Positions 54,725-64,000 of a stretch of DNA of 64,000 bases are shown here, piece by piece; within the stretch, counting starts at the first letter, position 1; every line of letters starts with the position of its first letter. The position numbers and the translations under genes are program-made. Under the pieces are notes generated by a model. That model saw nothing but the letters and a program-made list of their open reading frames with translations, did no database searches and was not told the DNA's origin. This DNA comes from Bacillus nitratireducens (GTDB lineage Bacteria > Bacillota > Bacilli > Bacillales > Bacillaceae_G): contig NZ_MAOC01000084.1 in NCBI RefSeq assembly GCF_001884135.1, positions 1 to 64,000 of the forward strand, written 5' to 3'.

Positions 54725-55023
54725 GGTAAGTTATATGTAACAGGGGTAGTGATTAATGTAGTACAGATTTATAGGATTTGTCATATTTTTTAATATATAC
54801 AAGATTTAACTGAATTTTTTTGAAATCTGTAATATATTTTTTTTCTTGGTGTTACAATTTTTTCACTTGAAATATATGTCGGACGATGTTTAAATTAAAA
54901 TCGTGAGTATAAAATTTACTGATGATGAAACGTTTTCATATTGAGTGAATTTAATTAGATAAAATCGAGCGGTTTGTGGAATGATCCACACAACTACCAA
55001 GAGAAAAAGGGGCGAAAGACTAG
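54725..55023 (+). promoter_or_regulatory. ackA upstream region with a degenerate cre-like site
   Basis: Gene-free gap of about 300 bp. TGAAACGTTTTCA at 54926-54938 is an almost symmetric word like the CcpA cre consensus but one base short. CcpA activates ackA in B. subtilis from an upstream cre, so this is a candidate; I cannot judge strength. Confidence 0.35.
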
Positions 55024-56217
55024 ATGTCAAAAATCATCGCGATTAACGCAGGAAGCTCTTCCTTAAAATTCCAATTATTTGAAATGCCAAGTGAAACAGT
55101 ATTAACAAAAGGTTTAGTAGAACGTATCGGTTTAGAAGATAGTATCTTCACTATTACTGTAGATGGCGAAAAACAAAAAGAAATTACAAATATCCCAGAT
55201 CACGCAGTAGCAGTTAATATGCTTCTTAAGAAGTTAACTGAAAACGGAATCGTAAAATCTCTTGATGAGATTGGCGGTATCGGTCACCGTGTTGTACACG
55301 GCGGCGAAAAATTTGCTGATTCTGTTTTAATTACTGATGAAGTATTAGCTGATATCGAAGAATTAAGCGATTTAGCACCACTTCACAACCCAGCAAACCT
55401 TGTTGGTATTAAAGCATTCCAAGAAGTACTACCAAACGTACCAGCAGTAGCAGTATTCGATACAGCATTCCACCAAACAATGCCGGAATCTGCATTCCTA
55501 TACAGCTTACCATATGAGTACTATGAAAAATTCGGTATCCGTAAATACGGTTTCCACGGAACTTCTCATAAATACGTAACTGAGCGTGCGGCTGAACTAT
55601 TAGGTCGTCCACTTGAAAGCTTAAGCCTACTTTCTTGTCACTTAGGTAACGGTGCAAGTATCGCAGCAGTAGAAGGCGGAAAATCAATCGATACTTCTAT
55701 GGGCTTCACTCCACTTGCTGGTGTAACAATGGGTACACGTTCTGGTAACATTGACCCTGCGTTAATTCCATACATCATGGAAAAAACAGGCCAAACAGTA
55801 GAAGAAGTAGTTAGCGTATTAAACAAGAAGAGTGGTATGTTAGGTCTTACTGGTTACTCTAGTGATCTACGTGACATCATTGCGAAAGAAGAAGAAGGCG
55901 ACCACCGTGCGAAAGTAGCACTTGATGTATTCGTAAGCCGTATCCACAAATACATCGGTTCTTACACTGCTCGTATGAAAGGTGTAGACGCAATCATCTT
56001 CACAGCTGGTGTAGGTGAAAACAGTGCAATTATTCGTGAACGCGTATTAGAAGGCCTTGAGTACATGGGCGTATACTTCGACGTAAAACGTAATAATGTA
56101 TTCGGTGAAGAAGCATTCATCAGCTTCCCACACTCTCCAGTAAAAATTATTGTAATTCCAACTGACGAAGAAGTTATGATCGCTCGTGACGTACTACGTC
56201 TTGGAGACATTGGTTAA
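55024..56217 (+). CDS. ackA: Acetate kinase
   Basis: 397 aa. Seen: phosphate 1 [13 protein letters not shown], phosphate 2 [14 protein letters not shown], adenosine-binding [20 protein letters not shown] and [18 protein letters not shown], and catalytic Arg and His of the ASKHA fold. Makes ATP and acetate from acetyl phosphate in overflow metabolism; complements AcsA, which recovers acetate. Full length. Confidence 0.97.
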
Positions 56218-56226
56218 TATATGAAA

Positions 56227-56262
56227 AGAAAGACGAGACCCTATAGGATCTCGTCTTTTTTC
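56227..56262. terminator. Terminator, ackA / convergent Nudix gene
   Basis: AAGACGAGA / TCTCGTCTT and T6; the Nudix stop codon is inside. Confidence 0.85.
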
Positions 56263-56675
56263 TTTTGTATATAGTTTAAAATGCCATCCGGATATAGTAC
56301 TTTTTCCTTCTGAGTGAATGCAGTAATGGGAACCCATTTTGCGTATGATACTGTTTTTTCATCTTGTATATTCAGTATTTCCATTTCATATAGTGATGTG
56401 TCTAGTAAACGTAAAGAATATAGTTGAATAATTTCATGACCAATTTCTCCATCAAGATGAAAGATGTTTTCTAAGCAGCCTAAATAATGGGTGATTTCTA
56501 CTTCTGTATGAAGCTCTTCTTTAAATTCACGAATAACGGTATGTGTTGATTTTTCACCAAGTTCAATTGAACCGCCAAGAGGTCGGTAAAATGTTTCATC
56601 GGCTGTATGATATTCTTGTACGAGAAGGCGATCTTGATGTGTAGCAAGACCAAAAGCTTTTGCACGTGGATACAT
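56241..56675 (-). CDS. Nudix hydrolase
   Basis: 144 aa. Seen: Nudix box GGSIELGEKSTHTVIREFKE then ELHTEV (about 35-60), matching Gx5Ex7REUxEExGU, where the REFKEEL Glu residues bind Mg. Substrate (a nucleoside diphosphate derivative) unknown; resembles MutT/YtkD-like members. Ends inside the ackA terminator. Confidence 0.85.
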   Translation of the reverse strand: MYPRAKAFGLATHQDRLLVQEYHTADETFYRPLGGSIELGEKSTHTVIREFKEELHTEVEITHYLGCLENIFHLDGEIGHEIIQLYSLRLLDTSLYEMEILNIQDEKTVSYAKWVPITAFTQKEKVLYPDGILNYIQKKKDEIL

Positions 56676-56747
56676 ATTGCAATCGCTCCTTATTTGTTTT
56701 GTATAAGGATAATTATAAGGCAGTGTGTAATAAAAAGTATCGTGTAT

Positions 56748-57392
56748 TTAACAGTGTGGTCTAATCGTGATCCCATCAAATAAGTCATTCCAAAATGCTT
56801 CATTGTACTGGTATACGTCCATAATAGGGCATTTCAGAACGCAAATATTTTGTAATCCCCAATCTTCTTCTACAACAGTTGGTACATCTTCAGGAATGAG
56901 TAATAGGACAGAGAATGTATGTTTAACTATTTGAGATAAAATGTGTTCCAAGGAACGTGCTTCTTCATATGTTCCTCCAGTTCGAATGAATAATATTGAT
57001 TCTTCCATTTCAATTGTAGTTAGAAAACGATTAATCCGATGCTCATAATTTAATTTAATATCTGTATAGGAAGGCCAAGAAGTGGGTGTATTTACATCTG
57101 TTTTAAAGTCATGACAGGAGTCGATTTCATAAAGCTTGTCTCTTAGTCGTAACTTAGCATTATCATCCCAAAATGAGATGAAAGACAAATTTTCTAATTC
57201 TAAAAAACGGTGAAAGCGATTTTGTAATAATAAATTTACTTTCTCTAATGAAGGACTTAGCATAAAATCAATAACGCCAAAAAATGGTGATAATTTGAAT
57301 TGAAATAATGCCCAAGCAGGCCAACAGTTTTGTCCTAAGCTGAATACTGCATTATAATTTTGTTTTATATTGGATAGATTCATGTGAGTCAT
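56748..57392 (-). CDS. DUF1796 putative papain-like cysteine peptidase
   Basis: 214 aa (ATG 57392; ATG 57383 also possible, AAGGATGAG upstream). Seen: AVFSLGQNCWPAWALFQF with Cys near residue 24, DFMLSPSLEKV, SCHDFKTD with His, and LFIRTGGTYEEARSLEHIL. This is the DUF1796 pattern, predicted papain-like Cys-His hydrolases of Bacilli, never characterised. Divergent from ecsC-like gene. Confidence 0.78.
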   Translation of the reverse strand: MTHMNLSNIKQNYNAVFSLGQNCWPAWALFQFKLSPFFGVIDFMLSPSLEKVNLLLQNRFHRFLELENLSFISFWDDNAKLRLRDKLYEIDSCHDFKTDVNTPTSWPSYTDIKLNYEHRINRFLTTIEMEESILFIRTGGTYEEARSLEHILSQIVKHTFSVLLLIPEDVPTVVEEDWGLQNICVLKCPIMDVYQYNEAFWNDLFDGITIRPHC

Positions 57393-57520
57393 CTCATCCT
57401 TTTTGCTAATATTTTATGTCATTAAAAAATGGTATGTGAATAAAGATAGACAAGCATATTTGCAAAGAACAAGCGGAAATATGTTACAATGGAAAAAAAT
57501 CGAACGAGGTGGTTGTTGCG

Positions 57521-58354
57521 ATGCGATCGAAGCGAGAACAAGCCATTTTAGACAATATAAAAGAGTGGGAAGGGCAATTAGTAGAGCAAGAAGCGACTGA
57601 CTTTCAAAAGATGTTTGATAAGTGGTTGCATACGACAATTGCGAAACTGCCTGAGAAAAAACGAAAAGACTTTTTTACGAAAGCAGATGGATGGCTCTTT
57701 CATTTGCATGCGCTTATTCAAAGTTCACAATCACAGCTAGATGCACGTAATCGTATTTTAGGAACGTCGAGAGTATTTGATGAATCCATTGAGCAACTTG
57801 AAGATTTGAAGGCGTTATCTATTGATCAATTAACATACATAGCAGAGCAGCAAACAGCACGTCATCGCCTATATTCATTCGTACAAGGCGGAGCAACTGG
57901 TGCTGGTGGTTTATTATTATTAACGGCTGATTTTCCGGTTATGATTGCGTTAAATGTGAAGGCTGTACAACTTGTTGCGACATCATTTGGGCATGATGTG
58001 AACAAGCCGTATGAAATGATGCTTGCATTAAAAGTATTCCATGCATCATTATTGCCGGCGAGACTTCAGCAATATGCATGGTACAATTTACTGAGGGAAC
58101 TCGAACAAGAGGATTCATTCTTCTATGAAGGAGACGAAGCGGTGTTAAAGCCAGCTTCTACTGAGGTTGTATTAAAACAAATTTTGAAGACGTTTTCGAT
58201 TTATGCTCTTCGTCGTAAATTATTCCAAGGGATTCCTGTACTCGGAATGGCAATTGGCTCTACAGTGAACTATCGCTTAACGAGGAATGTTACTGAATTT
58301 GCAAATAAGTTTTATCAAGTACGCTACATATTAGAAAAAGAAAAGAGAGCATGA
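57521..58354 (+). CDS. EcsC-family protein
   Basis: 277 aa from ATG 57521 (GAGGTGG at 8 nt). Seen: helical N-terminus, then the EcsC domain with FVQGGATGAGGLLLLTADFP then VMIALNVKAVQLVATSFG, and FQGIPVLGMAIGSTVNYRLT near the end. Glycine-rich hydrophobic helices suggest membrane association. B. subtilis EcsC belongs to the ecsABC operon, but this is a stand-alone homologue; function unknown. Confidence 0.82.
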   Translation: MRSKREQAILDNIKEWEGQLVEQEATDFQKMFDKWLHTTIAKLPEKKRKDFFTKADGWLFHLHALIQSSQSQLDARNRILGTSRVFDESIEQLEDLKALSIDQLTYIAEQQTARHRLYSFVQGGATGAGGLLLLTADFPVMIALNVKAVQLVATSFGHDVNKPYEMMLALKVFHASLLPARLQQYAWYNLLRELEQEDSFFYEGDEAVLKPASTEVVLKQILKTFSIYALRRKLFQGIPVLGMAIGSTVNYRLTRNVTEFANKFYQVRYILEKEKRA

Positions 58355-58391
58355 AAAAAAAGCGAGAGGCCGAAGCCTTTCGCTTTTTAGT
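58352..58391. terminator. Bidirectional terminator, ecsC-like / yitT-like
   Basis: AAAAAGCGA..GGC / GCC..TCGCTTTTT. Confidence 0.85.
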
Positions 58392-59049
58392 TTGTCGCAT
58401 GTTTTTTGGACATTGGAATAGATACTGGTTGCTTTGCTGCTTTCTTTTCTGTTTTTGGATAGTAAATTAAATCCAACGTTTTTGCCTGTACGGCAATCGA
58501 AAGAATAGTAAAAGCAATTTCTGTCCAATTTAAATAATATAATGAAAGCGCAAGAACAATCGCGTCAAAGACGAAGAAAATTTGCCCAATTGTAAAACGA
58601 GTTCGTTTACTTAATACAATTGTTAAAATATCGTCTCCACCGGTTGCACCGCCAAATCGCAATATAAAACCGAGTCCAATACCAGCTAACGCACCGCCAA
58701 CTACTGCAGCTATAAATAAATTATTTGATAAATCTACCGTAAAAGGAGAATAATTTTCCATAAGGGAATAAAATGCTCCGAATGAAAGTGAACCTAAGAA
58801 TGAATAGCCAACCATTTTTCTACCTAAAAATGAAGCACATAGTAAAATAATAGGGATATCCATTAATACAGTTGAAATAGATGGTGAAATATCATAAAAA
58901 TTTTGGATAAATAGTGCAATTCCTACAAAGCCACCTTCTGTTAAGTGGTTTTGGAAGTGAATGTGATATAGCGCTGCTGCTAAAATAAATGAACCGATTA
59001 AAACCATAAAAACTTCTTTAATAATTTGTCGACTTTGGATGTTCCTCAT
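58387..59049 (-). CDS. YitT-family membrane protein
   Basis: 220 aa, ATG 59049 with AAGGA just after a hairpin. Seen: five TM segments (about 12-32, 38-52, 58-77, 83-101 and 105-130, IAAVVGGALAGIGLGFILRF) with the signature FGGATGGDDILTIVLSK, a further helix about 150-190, then a basic tail. It stops before any DUF2179 domain, so it is the short form. The substrate of YitT proteins is not known. Preceded by an unusual leader with four short ORFs. Confidence 0.9.
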   Translation of the reverse strand: MRNIQSRQIIKEVFMVLIGSFILAAALYHIHFQNHLTEGGFVGIALFIQNFYDISPSISTVLMDIPIILLCASFLGRKMVGYSFLGSLSFGAFYSLMENYSPFTVDLSNNLFIAAVVGGALAGIGLGFILRFGGATGGDDILTIVLSKRTRFTIGQIFFVFDAIVLALSLYYLNWTEIAFTILSIAVQAKTLDLIYYPKTEKKAAKQPVSIPMSKKHATN

Positions 59050-59150
59050 CGTTATTCCTTCTTTCCGTAGTTAGTAGTCCTTGTTGTGTTGTAAACTAAC
59101 TACGAGCTCACATGTAGCTTTCAGTTAGTTTACGAAAAAAACTAACTACG

Positions 59151-59192
59151 CTATATGTCGCTGAAGAAATAACGAATAATCCTCTCGTCCAT
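59151..59192 (-). CDS. Leader peptide 4 (13 aa)
   Basis: MDERIIRYFFSDI, then TAG. Preceded by TAGGGAG at 5-6 nt. The word CGTAGTTAG, which can compete with HP5, starts right after its stop. Confidence 0.6.
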   Translation of the reverse strand: MDERIIRYFFSDI

Positions 59193-59233
59193 CAATTCTC
59201 CCTACCTTCGTTTTAGTTTAAGTCTTAAAACGA

Positions 59234-59263
59234 CTAAACAAAACGTGGAGTAGGATTCTTCAT
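59234..59263 (-). CDS. Leader peptide 3 (9 aa)
   Basis: MKNPTPRFV, then TAG. Site GCAGGATT upstream. Its last codons (CGT TTT GTT TAG) form the 5' arm of HP3, and the same word also follows the stop of leader 2. Confidence 0.5.
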   Translation of the reverse strand: MKNPTPRFV

Positions 59264-59324
59264 TTAGCAATCCTGCTCTTCTTTGTTTTGCTTAGCTAGT
59301 AACAATTAAGTCCTAAACAAAACG

Positions 59325-59375
59325 CTATGTGTAAGAAGAGTCTTTTTTTTGCCAAATTATCCTTCGGGCAATCAT
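59325..59375 (-). CDS. Leader peptide 2 (16 aa)
   Basis: MIARRIIWQKKDSSYT, then TAG. Preceded by GTGGGGA at normal spacing. HP2 starts one base after the stop. Paralogous to leader peptide 1. Confidence 0.7.
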   Translation of the reverse strand: MIARRIIWQKKDSSYT

Positions 59376-59433
59376 AATTTCCCCACTCTCGTATTTTTTT
59401 CGCTAGACTAAAGTATCTGAGCTGAAAAATACG

Positions 59434-59484
59434 CTACGTGTATGATTCGTCAATACGATGCCACATGCTCCTTCGAGCGATCAT
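59434..59484 (-). CDS. Leader peptide 1 (16 aa)
   Basis: MIARRSMWHRIDESYT, then TAG. GGAAGGGA lies upstream. HP1 begins on the first base after the stop. Homologous to leader peptide 2: ten of 16 residues identical, with four synonymous third-base changes (Ile, Ala, Ser, Thr). Confidence 0.7.
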   Translation of the reverse strand: MIARRSMWHRIDESYT

Positions 59485-59682
59485 GATATCAAAATCCCTT
59501 CCTTCAAGATTTATATTATTATATCATACTTTCAAAAAATGTATGCGGATGGAAACCGACAATAAACGGAGGAAATCTACAAAAATTATTATGTTTAAAT
59601 ATTTTTGTAGAAAAGCCTAAGTTATTTTGCAGAATTGGACGGTTTTTAAAAGTTTGTCCAATAAGTAAGAAAGGAATGGCGT

Positions 59683-59781
59683 TTATTCAGTTGTATCTTT
59701 CTGGTCACCTTTATCTTTAAAAAACGTATCCCAGCTAATCACACTTAAAAAAGTTAAAGCGATAATAATGAAAGCTCGCAT
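59683..59781 (-). CDS. Small 32-aa membrane peptide
   Basis: AAAGGAGG at ideal distance from ATG 59781. Sequence begins MRAFIIIALTFLSVISWDTF (a single TM helix) and ends in a charged tail FKDKGDQKDTTE. Not recognised. Strong ribosome site supports expression. It lies upstream of the leader-peptide region on the same strand; a CTACAAAAAT/ATTTTTGTAG inverted repeat (59577-59610) separates them and may terminate it. Confidence 0.65.
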   Translation of the reverse strand: MRAFIIIALTFLSVISWDTFFKDKGDQKDTTE

Positions 59782-59902
59782 GAAGTTGAGACCTCCTTTT
59801 GTACATAGTATATGAATAATTTGTTTCGGAATGTGTCATTTTTTTACAAGTCTTACTTGTTATGAGATATATCAATATAGATAGATGAAAGGGAGAGAAG
59901 AT

Positions 59903-60097
59903 ATGCTAAAAGACATGTTTAAAAGAAAAGAATTAATATGCGTTTCATGTCAGAAAAAGATTCAATATGAAGAAGAGCTCGTTGCTTTTGTAAAGTTGCC
60001 AAAGGAAAGAAGTATATTAGTTGGACCGTTTGATGTGTGTTTGGCGAAAACAGCACAAGAAATATATTGTAAATCGTGTTACGACAAAAAAGCATGA
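59903..60097 (+). CDS. Small four-Cys zinc-ribbon-like protein
   Basis: 64 aa from ATG 59903 (GGGAGAGAAG). Seen: LICVSCQKKIQYEE (CxxC at 14-17) and EIYCKSCYDKK (CxxC at 56-59), one zinc site made by two knuckles, with a further Cys in PFDVCLAKT. No known family named with confidence; similar short zinc proteins occur in Bacillus. Confidence 0.65.
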   Translation: MLKDMFKRKELICVSCQKKIQYEEELVAFVKLPKERSILVGPFDVCLAKTAQEIYCKSCYDKKA

Positions 60098-60127
60098 CCC
60101 AAAGTAATTGAGGGGCATGCTTTTTTC
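60085..60127. terminator. Bidirectional terminator
   Basis: AAAAAAGCATG.CCC / GGG.CATGCTTTTTT around the stop codons of the two convergent genes. Confidence 0.8.
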
Positions 60128-60443
60128 ATTGGTGTGCTTTTCCCTCAGATACATTTTGAGTGAGTCGATACCAAAGCCAAAGGTCATTAATGATGGAAGC
60201 GAGATCGGCAATTTCTGAATTAAGTTTGCAAGAAATTTCGAAGTTTTCTTCGTTATTTAAATGATGCTGTTTTGAATTAATAGAGTGTTCGAGTTCTTTT
60301 ATACGATCAGGAATCTTCCCGCGAACTTGCTCCCATTTTAATAAAATAGAATGCTGCGCTTGTTCAGAGATGTTTTCCCATTCGTCTTGTATGTTCGGCA
60401 CTTCAATTCCTAGATGTTCATTGTATATAAAATACTTTTTCAT
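60126..60443 (-). CDS. Unknown helical protein, 105 aa
   Basis: ATG 60443 with GGAGGG at 6 nt. Seen: N-terminal strand KKYFIYNEHLGIEVPNIQDE, then mostly alpha-helix (SEQAQHSILLKWEQVRGKIP; LNSEIADLASIINDLWLWYR), no TM, no Cys motif. Divergent from argG. Family not recognised. Confidence 0.6.
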   Translation of the reverse strand: MKKYFIYNEHLGIEVPNIQDEWENISEQAQHSILLKWEQVRGKIPDRIKELEHSINSKQHHLNNEENFEISCKLNSEIADLASIINDLWLWYRLTQNVSEGKAHQ

Positions 60444-60530
60444 AGACATCCCTCCATTTTCCTGCCTCTATTTTACATAAAAACAGAAAGAAGTTCGATG
60501 AAATTGTTTGAAAAAATTTGAAAATGACCC

Positions 60531-60594
60531 TTGATACATTTTGTAAAAGGTGTTAAAGTGTGAATTATTATAAAAGAAAATGAATATTTATTCT
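60531..60594 (+). promoter_or_regulatory. argGH promoter with two ARG boxes
   Basis: TTGATA (60531-60536), 17-bp spacer, TAAAGT (60554-60559). TGAATTATTATAAA (60561-60574) and TGAATATTTATTCT (60581-60594) resemble the ArgR/AhrC half-site consensus (TGAATWWWWATTCA), 20 bp apart, between promoter and start codon. Arginine-dependent repression is expected. Confidence 0.65.
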
Positions 60595-60609
60595 TTAGGG
60601 GGATGCAAA

Positions 60610-61815
60610 ATGGAGAAGAAAAAAGTTGTGTTAGCATATTCTGGAGGTCTTGATACTTCCGTTGCAATTAAATGGTTACAAGAGAAGAATTATGATATTA
60701 TCGCGCTTTGCTTAGATCTAGGGGAAGGTAAAGACTTAGCGTTTGTAAAAGAAAAAGCACTTTCAGTAGGTGCAATTAAATCGTATATGGTGGATGTTCA
60801 AGAAGAATTCGCGAATGAATATGCATTGATGGCGATGCAAGCACACACATTATACGAAGGGAAGTATCCTCTTGTCTCTGCATTATCTCGTCCGCTTATT
60901 GCGAAAAAGTTAGTGGAAATTGCAGAACAAGAAGGCGCAACTGCAGTTGCACATGGATGTACAGGGAAAGGGAATGACCAAGTTCGTTTTGAAGTTTCTA
61001 TTCAAGCATTAAATCCTTACTTAGAAGTGATTGCACCTGTGCGTGAATGGAAATGGTCACGTGAAGAAGAAATTGCATATGCAAAAGAAAATGATGTACC
61101 AATTCCGATTAATTTAGATAGCCCATTTTCAATTGATCAAAACTTATGGGGACGCAGCAACGAATGTGGAATTTTAGAAGATCCATGGGCAGCGCCGCCA
61201 GAAGATGCATATGAGATGACATTGGCATTAGAAGATACACCGAATAAACCAGAATTTGTAGAAATCGGCTTTGAAGCAGGCGTACCAACGACCTTAAATG
61301 GCACTGCATATCCACTTTCAGAATTAATTAAAACGTTAAATGCGCTTGCTGGAAAACACGGCGTTGGACGTATCGATCACGTAGAAAATCGTCTTGTCGG
61401 TATTAAATCTCGTGAAGTATACGAATGCCCAGCAGCAATGACGTTAATTACAGCACATAAAGAGCTAGAAGATTTAACACACGTAAAAGAAGTAGCACAT
61501 TTTAAACCGGTGATTGAGCAGAAAATAACAGAACTTATTTATAACGGTTTATGGTTCTCTCCTTTAAAACAAGCGCTCCATGCATTTTTACAAGAGACGC
61601 AAAAGAATGTAACAGGTACAGTGCGTGTGAAATTATTTAAAGGTCATGCGATTGTAGAAGGACGTAAATCTGAGTACTCTTTATACGACGAAAAGCTAGC
61701 AACATATACTGCCCAGGACGAATTTAATCATGATGCAGCAGTTGGATTCATTTCGTTATTTGGTTTACCGACGAAAGTATACAGCCAAGTGAATCAAAAG
61801 AAGGTGGAAGCGTGA
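60610..61815 (+). CDS. argG: Argininosuccinate synthase
   Basis: 401 aa from ATG 60610 (AGGGGGATG). Seen: P-loop [45 protein letters not shown] and [12 protein letters not shown]. Joins citrulline and aspartate using ATP in arginine synthesis. Its last bases overlap the GTG of argH by four, so the two are translationally coupled. Confidence 0.97.
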
Positions 61816-63200
61816 GCAAACTTTGGGGCGGACGTTTTACAGAAGAGGCGGAGGCATGGGTTGAAGAGTTTGGAGCATCCATCTCCTTCGATCAACAATT
61901 AGTAAATCAAGATATAAATGGGAGTATTGCACACGTAACGATGCTAGCAAAGCAAGGCATCGTTACGAAAGAAGAAGCCGAGAAAATAAAGATAGGTCTT
62001 CAATATTTATTAGAAGAAGCGAAACAAAATAAATTGCATTTTTCAGTTGAAGCTGAAGACATTCATTTAAATATCGAAAAGATGTTAATTGAAAAAATCG
62101 GTGAAGTAGGAGGGAAACTTCATACTGGCCGAAGCCGTAATGATCAAGTAGCGACAGATATGCATTTATATTTAAAAGAAAAAGTAGAACATATTATAAA
62201 AGCTACAAAACAATTGCAAACCGTTCTTGTTCATCAAGCGGAAAATAACATTGAAACAATTATGCCTGGCTATACGCACTTGCAGCGTGCCCAGCCGATT
62301 TCATTTGCGCATCATATTCTTGCTTACTTTTGGATGTTAGAGCGCGATGTGAATCGTTATGAAGATTCGTTAAAGCGTATTAACATTTCACCATTAGGAG
62401 CAGGAGCACTAGCTGGTACAACATTCCCGATTGACCGAGAATATAGTGCGGAGCTTCTTGGATTTAATGGAATCTATGAAAATAGTTTAGATGCGGTAAG
62501 TGATCGTGATTTCATACTGGAGTTTTTAAGTAACTCATCTATGCTTATGATGCACTTATCACGCTTTTGCGAAGAACTTATTTTGTGGAGTAGTCAAGAG
62601 TTTCAATTTATTGAAATGAGCGATCAATACGCAACAGGAAGCAGTATTATGCCGCAGAAGAAAAATCCGGATATGGCGGAACTTATTCGTGGTAAAACGG
62701 GCAGAGTATACGGTAATTTATTCAGTTTACTTACAGTAATGAAAGGATTGCCGCTCGCTTACAATAAAGACTTACAAGAAGATAAAGAAGGAATGTTTGA
62801 TACAGTGAAAACAGTAGAAGGATGCCTTCATATTATGGCAGGCATGATTGAAACGATGACTGTAAACAAAGAAAAAATGGGGCAAGCTGTGACGCAAGAC
62901 TTTTCTAACGCAACAGAAATTGCCGACTATTTAGCAAGCAAGGGACTGCCGTTCCGTCAAGCACATGAAATTGTCGGGAAACTAGTTCTTCATTGTACGC
63001 AAAAAGGAATCTATTTATTAGATGTACCACTTGAAACGTATAAAGAAATGAGTCCGTTATTTGAAGAAGATTTATATGAAGTTCTTTCACCTTATGCAGC
63101 TGTAAAGCGCCGTAACAGTGCTGGTGGGACAGGGTTTAAGCAAATTGAAAAGGCTTTGGAGAAGGCGAAGGGGTTAGTTGGAGAGTTTGTTGGAAGTTAA
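61812..63200 (+). CDS. argH: Argininosuccinate lyase
   Basis: 462 aa from GTG 61812 (GTGA overlap with argG, AAGGTGG upstream). Seen: [57 protein letters not shown] and the fumarase-superfamily loop [20 protein letters not shown]. Splits argininosuccinate to arginine and fumarate. Last gene of the operon, followed by a terminator. Confidence 0.97.
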
Positions 63201-63216
63201 ATGATGCATGATATAG

Positions 63217-63253
63217 AAGGTAAGGTGCTTTTTTAGAAGTACCTTACCTTTTT
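63217..63253 (+). terminator. Terminator of argGH
   Basis: AAGGTAAGGT / ACCTTACCTT followed by T. Confidence 0.88.
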
Positions 63254-63257
63254 GTGT

Positions 63258-63824
63258 TTAGATTTTTAGGTATGTATCTATCATTTCATAATTGTTTTTC
63301 ATAATCATAAAGTGATGCATCTCATGTATCGCTAATAGCTGAATAGATTGAATAAGGTTAGGGTAGTGAGCAATTGGATCTAAAAATACGATATGACCTG
63401 CAATATTTTCTTCTATATTTTGAACTAGTTTCTTTATTTCATCTGTTTCACGTGAGAGTAATTCTTCTAATTCGTTTACATTCATAGAGTAATAGATTTT
63501 TTTTGAAGGGATTAAAATCCAAGGAGCTTTCATTCCTTTACCGTGTTTTTCTTTATATTCGGCATAAATGTCATGTATGTCAGTTGCAAATGGGGTGTTT
63601 TTTCTTAGCTTGGCATAAGGGATAAGAGTGAAAGAGAATTTAATCGCTACTTTTAGCATCTTTGCAATTAAATATAAATGATAAAAGTGCTCACCGATAG
63701 ACCATTTTCCATCATCTTTCCTATACCATAGTTGTTCGTGTGAAAGGGAATGGAGATGAGGAAGGAACTCGTTCCTTTGTACATGTAATGTATGAAAATG
63801 TTTTGAGATATTTTCAGATTGCAT
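63258..63824 (-). CDS. DinB-family four-helix protein
   Basis: 188 aa, GGAGGATA before ATG 63824. Seen: the DinB metal-triad His positions, GEHFYHLYLIAK (His about 49) and HEMHHFMIMKNN (about 167-172), with GKWSIGEHFYHL typical of DinB/YfiT. Probably a metal-dependent bacillithiol-S-transferase-like or related enzyme; exact activity unknown. Confidence 0.8.
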   Translation of the reverse strand: MQSENISKHFHTLHVQRNEFLPHLHSLSHEQLWYRKDDGKWSIGEHFYHLYLIAKMLKVAIKFSFTLIPYAKLRKNTPFATDIHDIYAEYKEKHGKGMKAPWILIPSKKIYYSMNVNELEELLSRETDEIKKLVQNIEENIAGHIVFLDPIAHYPNLIQSIQLLAIHEMHHFMIMKNNYEMIDTYLKI

Positions 63825-63840
63825 ATTTTGGTATCCTCCA

Positions 63841-63876
63841 TTTTTCCTAATTATAACATTTTTCCTAATTATAACA
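63841..63876. repeat. 18-bp tandem duplication containing the DinB promoter -10
   Basis: Unit TTTTTCCTAATTATAACA twice. On the minus strand each copy holds TATAAT, so the -10 box of the DinB-family gene is doubled. Confidence 0.6.
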
Positions 63877-63894
63877 TTTTTCGTATGAATTTAA

Positions 63895-63931
63895 TTAAGC
63901 CTAGAACAATATGTTCTAGGCTTAAGGTTTT
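63895..63931. terminator. Terminator of the next minus-strand gene
   Basis: AAGCCTAGAACA / TGTTCTAGGCTT, perfect, with A/T tracts. Confidence 0.8.
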
Positions 63932-63936
63932 ATCGA

Positions 63937-64000
63937 TTAATCATACTTATGCCGATCTTTCGTAATTCGAATATACTCAATATCCATCAAGTCTCTAAGT
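63937..64000 (-). CDS. C-terminus of an unidentified gene running off the window
   Basis: Only the last 20 residues are present, LRDLMDIEYIRITKDRHKYD, ending at TAA 63937. Too short to name. Confidence 0.5.
   Translation of the reverse strand, partial: LRDLMDIEYIRITKDRHKYD

Follow-up and report, generated by a model that had tools for sequence, protein, structure and literature searches.

The analysed window, 64,000 nucleotides of a contig of Bacillus nitratireducens, carries on its minus strand a gene for a YitT-family membrane protein, whose 220-residue product matches PF02588 with an E value of 9.7e-43 (146.4 bits against a curated cut-off of 24.3). Between 59528 and 59050 on this strand the gene is preceded by an extended -10 element and four short ORFs, all of which end in TAG (Table 1). 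The original prediction described this region as a promoter and four serial leader peptides with interleaved hairpins. Its sequence facts hold: ORFs, stops and stems lie where it placed them, ORF1 and ORF2 have 10 of 16 residues in common, with I, A, S and T codons that differ at the third base only, and the word CGTAGTTAG occurs twice in the leader, either copy being able to pair with either complement. A stem directly follows the stops of ORF1, ORF2 and ORF4; the stop of ORF3, for which the same had been claimed, sits inside its own stem. Hereafter ORF1, ORF2 and ORF4 are referred to as ORF A, ORF A' and ORF B.

Table 1. Elements of the yitT leader and the gene that follows it; positions refer to the window.
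Feature	Positions	Strand	Remarks
Extended -10 promoter element TATGATATAAT	59518..59528	-	44 nt before ORF A
ORF A (ORF1), leader peptide MIARRSMWHRIDESYT, stop UAG	59434..59484	-	Present in 22/22 leaders
Hairpin within ORF A, codons 3-6, GCUC-GAAG-GAGC core	59466..59479	-	RNAalifold, 22 leaders, and alignment
Stem-loop separating ORF A and ORF A'	59390..59433	-	Folding
ORF A' (ORF2), second leader-peptide copy MIARRIIWQKKDSSYT, stop UAG	59325..59375	-	
A' codons 13-15 UCUUCUUAC, predicted mask of the ORF B SD	59331..59339	-	9-bp helix, MFE fold
Insertion arm, two stems containing ORF3	59206..59324	-	Without counterpart in 21 relatives
ORF3, MKNPTPRFV, stop TAG	59263-59234	-	
ORF B SD region GUAGGGAGA, partner of A' codons 13-15	59197..59205	-	
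ORF B (ORF4), MDERIIRYFFSDI, stop UAG	59151..59192	-	Present in 22/22 leaders
ORF B codons 7-10 CGUUAUUUCUUC, predicted mask of the yitT SD and spacer	59163..59174	-	
Segment 1 CGUAGUUAGUUU	59139..59150	-	
Segment 2 AAACUAACU, able to pair with segment 1 or 3	59123..59131	-	
Segment 3 CGUAGUUAGUUU, able to pair with segment 4 or 2	59093..59104	-	
Segment 4 ACUAACUACG, pairs with segment 3 or 1	59066..59075	-	Ends 4 nt before the yitT SD element
yitT SD and spacer GAAGGAAUAACG, partner of ORF B codons 7-10	59050..59061	-	
yitT-family membrane protein gene, 220 aa	58387..59049	-	PF02588; close relatives in 21 genomes

As a whole, the 486-nt leader is more stable than 100 out of 100 dinucleotide shuffles (z -6.49). 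A simple consensus scan of positions 58900-59900 yielded no terminator-like site, which favours control of translation. No Rfam family reaches its gathering score in 55000-64000, and the leader itself is without a match at E up to 1; the sole listing, RF02503 at 58359-58416, lies outside the leader (E 0.72, 16.2 bits against a gathering score of 40). Upstream of the leader (59683-59781, minus strand) we noticed by eye an ORF of 32 codons preceded by the strong SD AAAGGAGG; its product MRAFIIIALTFLSVISWDTFFKDKGDQKDTTE, with a hydrophobic N-terminus and a charged C-terminus, resembles a small membrane protein. Farther away, 59885-60097 on the plus strand encode a 70-residue protein with two CxxC pairs that is zinc-ribbon-like by eye; it has no Pfam or NCBIfam match at E 0.001.

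Homologous leaders with ORFs A and B precede yitT in all 21 close relatives, i.e. 19/19 genomes of one family and 2/2 of another genus (G389 and G401), and these together with the window make up the 22 leaders of our dataset. A genome scan yielded a single locus, from Priestia taiwanensis (L001), and each of the 19 genomes of its family has one yitT match at E up to 1e-40. At the level of the order, a yitT match at E up to 1e-45 occurs in 5 of 150 genomes, all five already in the set, and a covariance model of the A region finds 11 of 299 genomes, none of them new, at E below 1e-14, as well as weak matches, three of which were inspected. The leader model detects one place in each of the 19 family genomes, with two adjacent units in G001; otherwise its matches have E values of 0.28 or worse. 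Genes around yitT vary among several relatives, so leader and gene appear to travel together. The 22 leaders belong mostly to one tight clade, with an effective number of 1.96. Their ORF arrangement is A-A'-B in P. taiwanensis, A-A'-ORF3-B in the window, and A-B in the other 20.

The promoter that had been predicted is present, with the correction that its conserved element is the extended -10: the pattern TRTGNTANNAT lies 44-89 nt upstream of A in 22/22 leaders. Leaders L009, L011, L012 and L014-L023 have it at 86-89 nt before A, against 44-46 nt, and most of them show by eye an extra inverted repeat, GTTAGA...TCTAAC, between promoter and A.

Peptide A consists of 16 residues with the consensus M-x-A-R-R-S-I-W-x-x-x-D-x-S-Y-T, followed by UAG. 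Its copy A' is found in the window and in P. taiwanensis and is absent from the other 20 relatives; with up to 3 mismatches allowed, a conserved 18-base stretch of ORF1 occurs twice in the window, once in ORF1 and once in ORF2, where 0.03 matches were expected. The codon-level conservation in relatives on which the original prediction of a first leader peptide depends was found in three ways. When the stop is left aside, variation is concentrated in third codon positions (0.30 versus 0.14 and 0.10; permutation p 0.0075), and pN/pS is 0.32 for ten representatives. On the yitT tree, 33 of 55 inferred changes fall at third positions; for D12, S14, Y15 and T16 we count 5, 4, 4 and 3 third-base changes (16 in total) and zero residue changes. 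Finally, A and A' of P. taiwanensis were compared with one Arg codon of A omitted for the alignment: 7 of their differences are synonymous (8.0 sites) and 2 are non-synonymous (34 sites); the same comparison is weaker in the window, with 6 on 9.3 and 10 on 35.7 sites, respectively. Judged by these substitution patterns, peptide A is under purifying selection as a peptide. Furthermore, the last codon of A and its UAG are unpaired in the consensus fold; hence, pairing provides no explanation for their conservation. UAG ends 22/22 A, 2/2 A' and 22/22 B ORFs, as well as ORF3, while elsewhere it terminates 10 of the 54 window ORFs over 130 aa and 3 of the 22 yitT genes.

These results bear on the view that the small ORFs are fortuitous and RNA structure alone matters, as in a protein- or metabolite-binding leader. 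The strong fold and the conserved helices would suit such a leader; yet it would account neither for the synonymous bias of A, which persists between A and A' where the inner hairpin is lost, nor for intact UAG-ending frames in 46/46 A, A' and B ORFs, and the result at the Rfam gathering score in 55000-64000 also speaks against it. We consider this view highly improbable.

The hairpin formed by codons 3-6 of A has a stem core that is invariant in 22/22 A copies and a loop that changed once on the tree. AGG is fixed at codon 5, though it represents only 8% of the Arg codons in the window. Both A' copies are without this hairpin but retain an AGG.

ORF B encodes 13 residues with the motif -Y-[FS]-F-x-x-I before its UAG and is found in 22/22 leaders. 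What had been expected of it as a further conserved peptide is not supported: the third-position bias is non-significant (p 0.18; pN/pS 0.40), and most of the conserved residues are encoded by bases engaged in pairing with the yitT SD, so that they are no sign of conservation of B as a peptide. It is the pairing that stands out. The final stem does touch the yitT SD, as originally described, and the SD is additionally masked by codons 7-10 of ORF B, a helix which that description overlooked. It became apparent when leaders were folded individually, and in the window CGUUAUUUCUUC pairs with GAAGGAAUAACG; an alignment-free search finds 10-15 bp between the two regions in 22/22 leaders, and codon-shuffled versions of B equal the helix score in only 0-13 of 500 shuffles. 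On the alignment, 98.1% of cells are paired, and two pairs show changes on both sides. Pair 26-181 is UA in 14 leaders, CG in 7 and UG in 1, and pairing is kept when Phe9 becomes Ser9; with only two state changes on the tree, this covariation amounts to few events. Pair 19-188 is UA in 14 and CG in 3, and is broken in 5 of 22. RNAalifold recovers most of the helix unprompted. By these comparisons, the helix between B and the yitT SD is conserved across leaders. The AUAUAG tail of B can pair downstream in some leaders, so that pairing may account for the UAG of this ORF.

A second, similar contact is predicted upstream. RNAalifold pairs codons 14-15 of A with the SD of B, again unprompted, and in the window the B SD is masked by A' through a 9-bp helix in the MFE fold. 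The last codons of A may thus mask the B SD in the predicted structures. The helix between A and the B SD measures about 5 bp and is within chance by shuffling in most leaders; it is therefore weaker evidence than the helix between B and the yitT SD.

Could these helices simply couple translation, with no signal involved? Under this explanation the chain of ORFs would set a low, growth-rate-linked YitT level. The helices alone would indeed couple B to yitT and, in most cases, A to B too, and the conserved residues of B are largely paired bases. But plain coupling gives no account of the conservation of peptide A, including W8, D12 and T16, whose codons are unpaired in the consensus fold, and it leaves the invariant UAG unexplained; we consider it unlikely.

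Downstream of B, four segments could pair in both ways that the claim of competing stems implies. In one form, 1:2 (86% of cells, with a nearly complete 8-bp core) is combined with 3:4 (99%); in the alternative, 2:3 (98%) is combined with 1:4 (99%). The segments hardly vary, so their conservation is no proof of switching between the two forms. When a ribosome was placed on the stop codon of B, 7 of 10 folded leaders released segment 4, and L023, L042 and L025 kept it paired.

The effect of ribosome position was analysed by masking a ribosome footprint codon by codon, refolding the leader and recording the probability that an SD is unpaired. For the step from B to yitT the outcome is uniform: in 22/22 leaders the yitT SD is unpaired at 0.02-0.29 in the free leader and at 0.45-0.98 with the A-site between codon 5 of B and its stop. 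For the step from A to B, 18 of the 20 A-B leaders show a B SD that is more often unpaired (mean rise 0.12-0.50) when a ribosome stands between codon 12 of A and its stop than when the leader is free; the exceptions are L010, in which the mean drops from 0.49 to 0.37, and L013 (0.49 to 0.47). The corresponding step in the window starts from A', where a ribosome at codon 10 or beyond lifts the B SD from 0.07 to 0.40-0.55. Release of each SD by ribosome position, and with it the step from A to B, is thus predicted by folding. What is less convincing is the step from A to A'. The A' SD of P. taiwanensis opens at codons 12-13 of A only and is closed with the ribosome at Tyr15, Thr16 or the stop (0.12-0.22 versus 0.30 free), and that of the window is hardly masked at all (0.51 free); as modelled, coupling between A and A' is poor.

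ORF3, counted as one of four leader peptides in the original prediction, fares differently. There is no counterpart in the 21 relatives, and in the window fold that includes A' a ribosome on ORF3 leaves the B SD closed (0.07-0.08 unpaired); in a shorter fold that starts at ORF3, the B SD goes from 0.38 free to 0.46-0.66. ORF3 is probably not a functional leader peptide, and on the strength of the missing counterparts and the fold with A' it was dropped from our model. The idea of serial, ribosome-dependent refolding thus survives as the likely control for A or A' and for B, but not for ORF3.

A shortage of charged tRNA for Trp, Tyr or Arg had been suggested as a possible inducer. Of these, only Tyr is placed appropriately, Tyr15 of A and Tyr8 of B sitting within the masking helices; with a ribosome at Trp8, Arg4 or Arg5 of A, the next SD stays near its unoccupied value in most leaders. 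Control by amino-acid shortage would be one special form of the relay proposed below: a ribosome awaiting charged tRNA-Tyr at these two codons would hold both masking helices open. Tyr is invariant in 22/22 A, 2/2 A' and 22/22 B, both codons belong to masking elements, and a ribosome at Tyr15 of A brings the B SD above its free value in 18/20 A-B leaders. Against this, each peptide contains a single Tyr codon, the Tyr follows in part from SD complementarity (UCNUAY, UUAUUY), the conserved A3, R5, S6, W8, D12, T16 and UAG of A are left unexplained, and in P. taiwanensis the A' SD stays closed (0.12) when the ribosome stands at Tyr15 of A. Stalls at Trp8 and Arg4/5 fail to open the next SD in most leaders. 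Tyrosine shortage appears to us a quite unlikely trigger.

We propose that the leader acts as a translational attenuator operated by ribosomes, in the form of a relay in which A opens B and B opens yitT, and we regard this model as likely. As long as the leader is free of ribosomes, yitT would be kept closed by pairing of its SD with codons 7-10 of B, and B by pairing of its SD with codons close to the end of A or, in the window, of A'. The B SD would be uncovered by a ribosome that has reached roughly the last five codons of A or A' or the stop codon, and the yitT SD by one positioned between about codon 5 of B and its stop. Near the B stop, the ribosome would also cover segment 1, so that 2:3 pairing becomes possible and segment 4 is perhaps freed. 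Peptide A, with its conserved residues, would be the likely sensor and B mainly a coupler. We infer that arrest near the end of A acts as the trigger, and that the leader serves to induce yitT and not to couple it constitutively: a signal under which ribosomes stop or slow down between codon 12 of A and its UAG, perhaps also on B, would raise YitT.

Among known classes of attenuators, the leader resembles the erm type. Short ORFs with an SD lie upstream of the gene in 22/22 leaders, the codon pattern of A points to selection, and the SD of the gene lies in a pairing that, in the folding model, a ribosome on a leader ORF would disrupt. Attenuators of the trp type are marked by an intrinsic terminator in the leader and by a run of codons for one amino acid. 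Here, no intrinsic terminator was found in the leader (58900-59900), and neither A nor B contains a run of more than two codons for the same residue, the longest being Arg-Arg in A and Phe-Phe in some B. For a T-box or another known riboswitch, the leader has no Rfam match at E up to 1.

A more specific version of the relay would make peptide A a termination-arrest sensor: ribosomes would halt at the invariant UAG after D-x-S-Y-T and hold the B SD open, B would relay this to yitT, and the trigger would be a tunnel ligand, perhaps the YitT substrate, or impaired RF1. We put this version forward tentatively, as a possibility with the odds somewhat against it. If it is true, two or three serial ORFs would multiply the response and produce a graded or thresholded switch, and the number of sensor units would differ by lineage, with A-B in 20 leaders, A-A'-B in P. 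taiwanensis and the same in the window plus an extra arm.

The principle of serial control is already known, since a cascade model with two leader peptides has been published for ermA. According to the account in PMC8274638, one model has the second peptide activated by a stall on the first, and ermA in turn by a stall on the second. The likeness lies in the two short serial ORFs before the controlled gene (ermAL1 and ermAL2 in ermA); the gene here encodes a YitT-family membrane protein, whereas ermA encodes a methyltransferase, and in the yitT leader the SD of the target gene is paired directly with codons of ORF B, a comparison made with the published description of ermA. Two leader peptides, ermBL and ermBL2, are also described as needed for induction of ermB, but these share nucleotides, and a stall on the first is reported there not to induce the second (PMC8274638); the ORFs of the yitT leader are separated by stems. 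Within Bacillus, bmrB of the bmrCD operon of Bacillus subtilis is a leader peptide that, as described in PMC4191407, senses ribosome inhibitors and controls membrane transport proteins. It is similar in being a Bacillus leader peptide before genes for membrane proteins, but it acts by transcriptional attenuation with a terminator within its 53-aa ORF, as presented in that source, while the yitT leader is without a terminator-like site. The uORFC-6-1 motif before hflX in Bacillales likewise combines a short conserved peptide with covarying RNA structure, as described in PMC8632094; it has an R-L-R motif and precedes another gene, and the word yitT is absent from the main text of that paper. A literature search, with most subscription journals outside its reach, found no paper on a yitT leader; the terms yitT and leader peptide co-occur in PMC9782665 and PMC8215347, as unrelated mentions.

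The erm leaders lend some weight to another special case of the relay, in which ribosomes are stalled on A, on B or on both by an antibiotic that targets them, and YitT aids survival: the general architecture is the same, including the two serial leaders described for ermA (PMC8274638). But neither A nor B has the R-L-R motif reported for the Bacillales uORF before hflX (PMC8632094), and a structural search with the AlphaFold model of YitT (pLDDT 80.4) gave no informative match, so that the fold offers no link to resistance. Induction by drugs is, in our estimate, improbable. In a second look at the structural list, the ECF S components 5edl and 4dve stand at ranks 1 and 2, and 4muu, which we take to be another ECF S component, at rank 9, all at Z values too low to support an assignment.

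With the yitT leader, a second system would be available for testing the two-leader cascade proposed for ermA. It is a natural series of leader ORFs with readable wiring, in which codons of one ORF mask the SD of the next; it occurs in 21 relatives, and the number of its sensor units has changed. It also ties the YitT membrane family to an apparent ribosome-based sensor, so that the inducer of the leader could reveal the role of this YitT.
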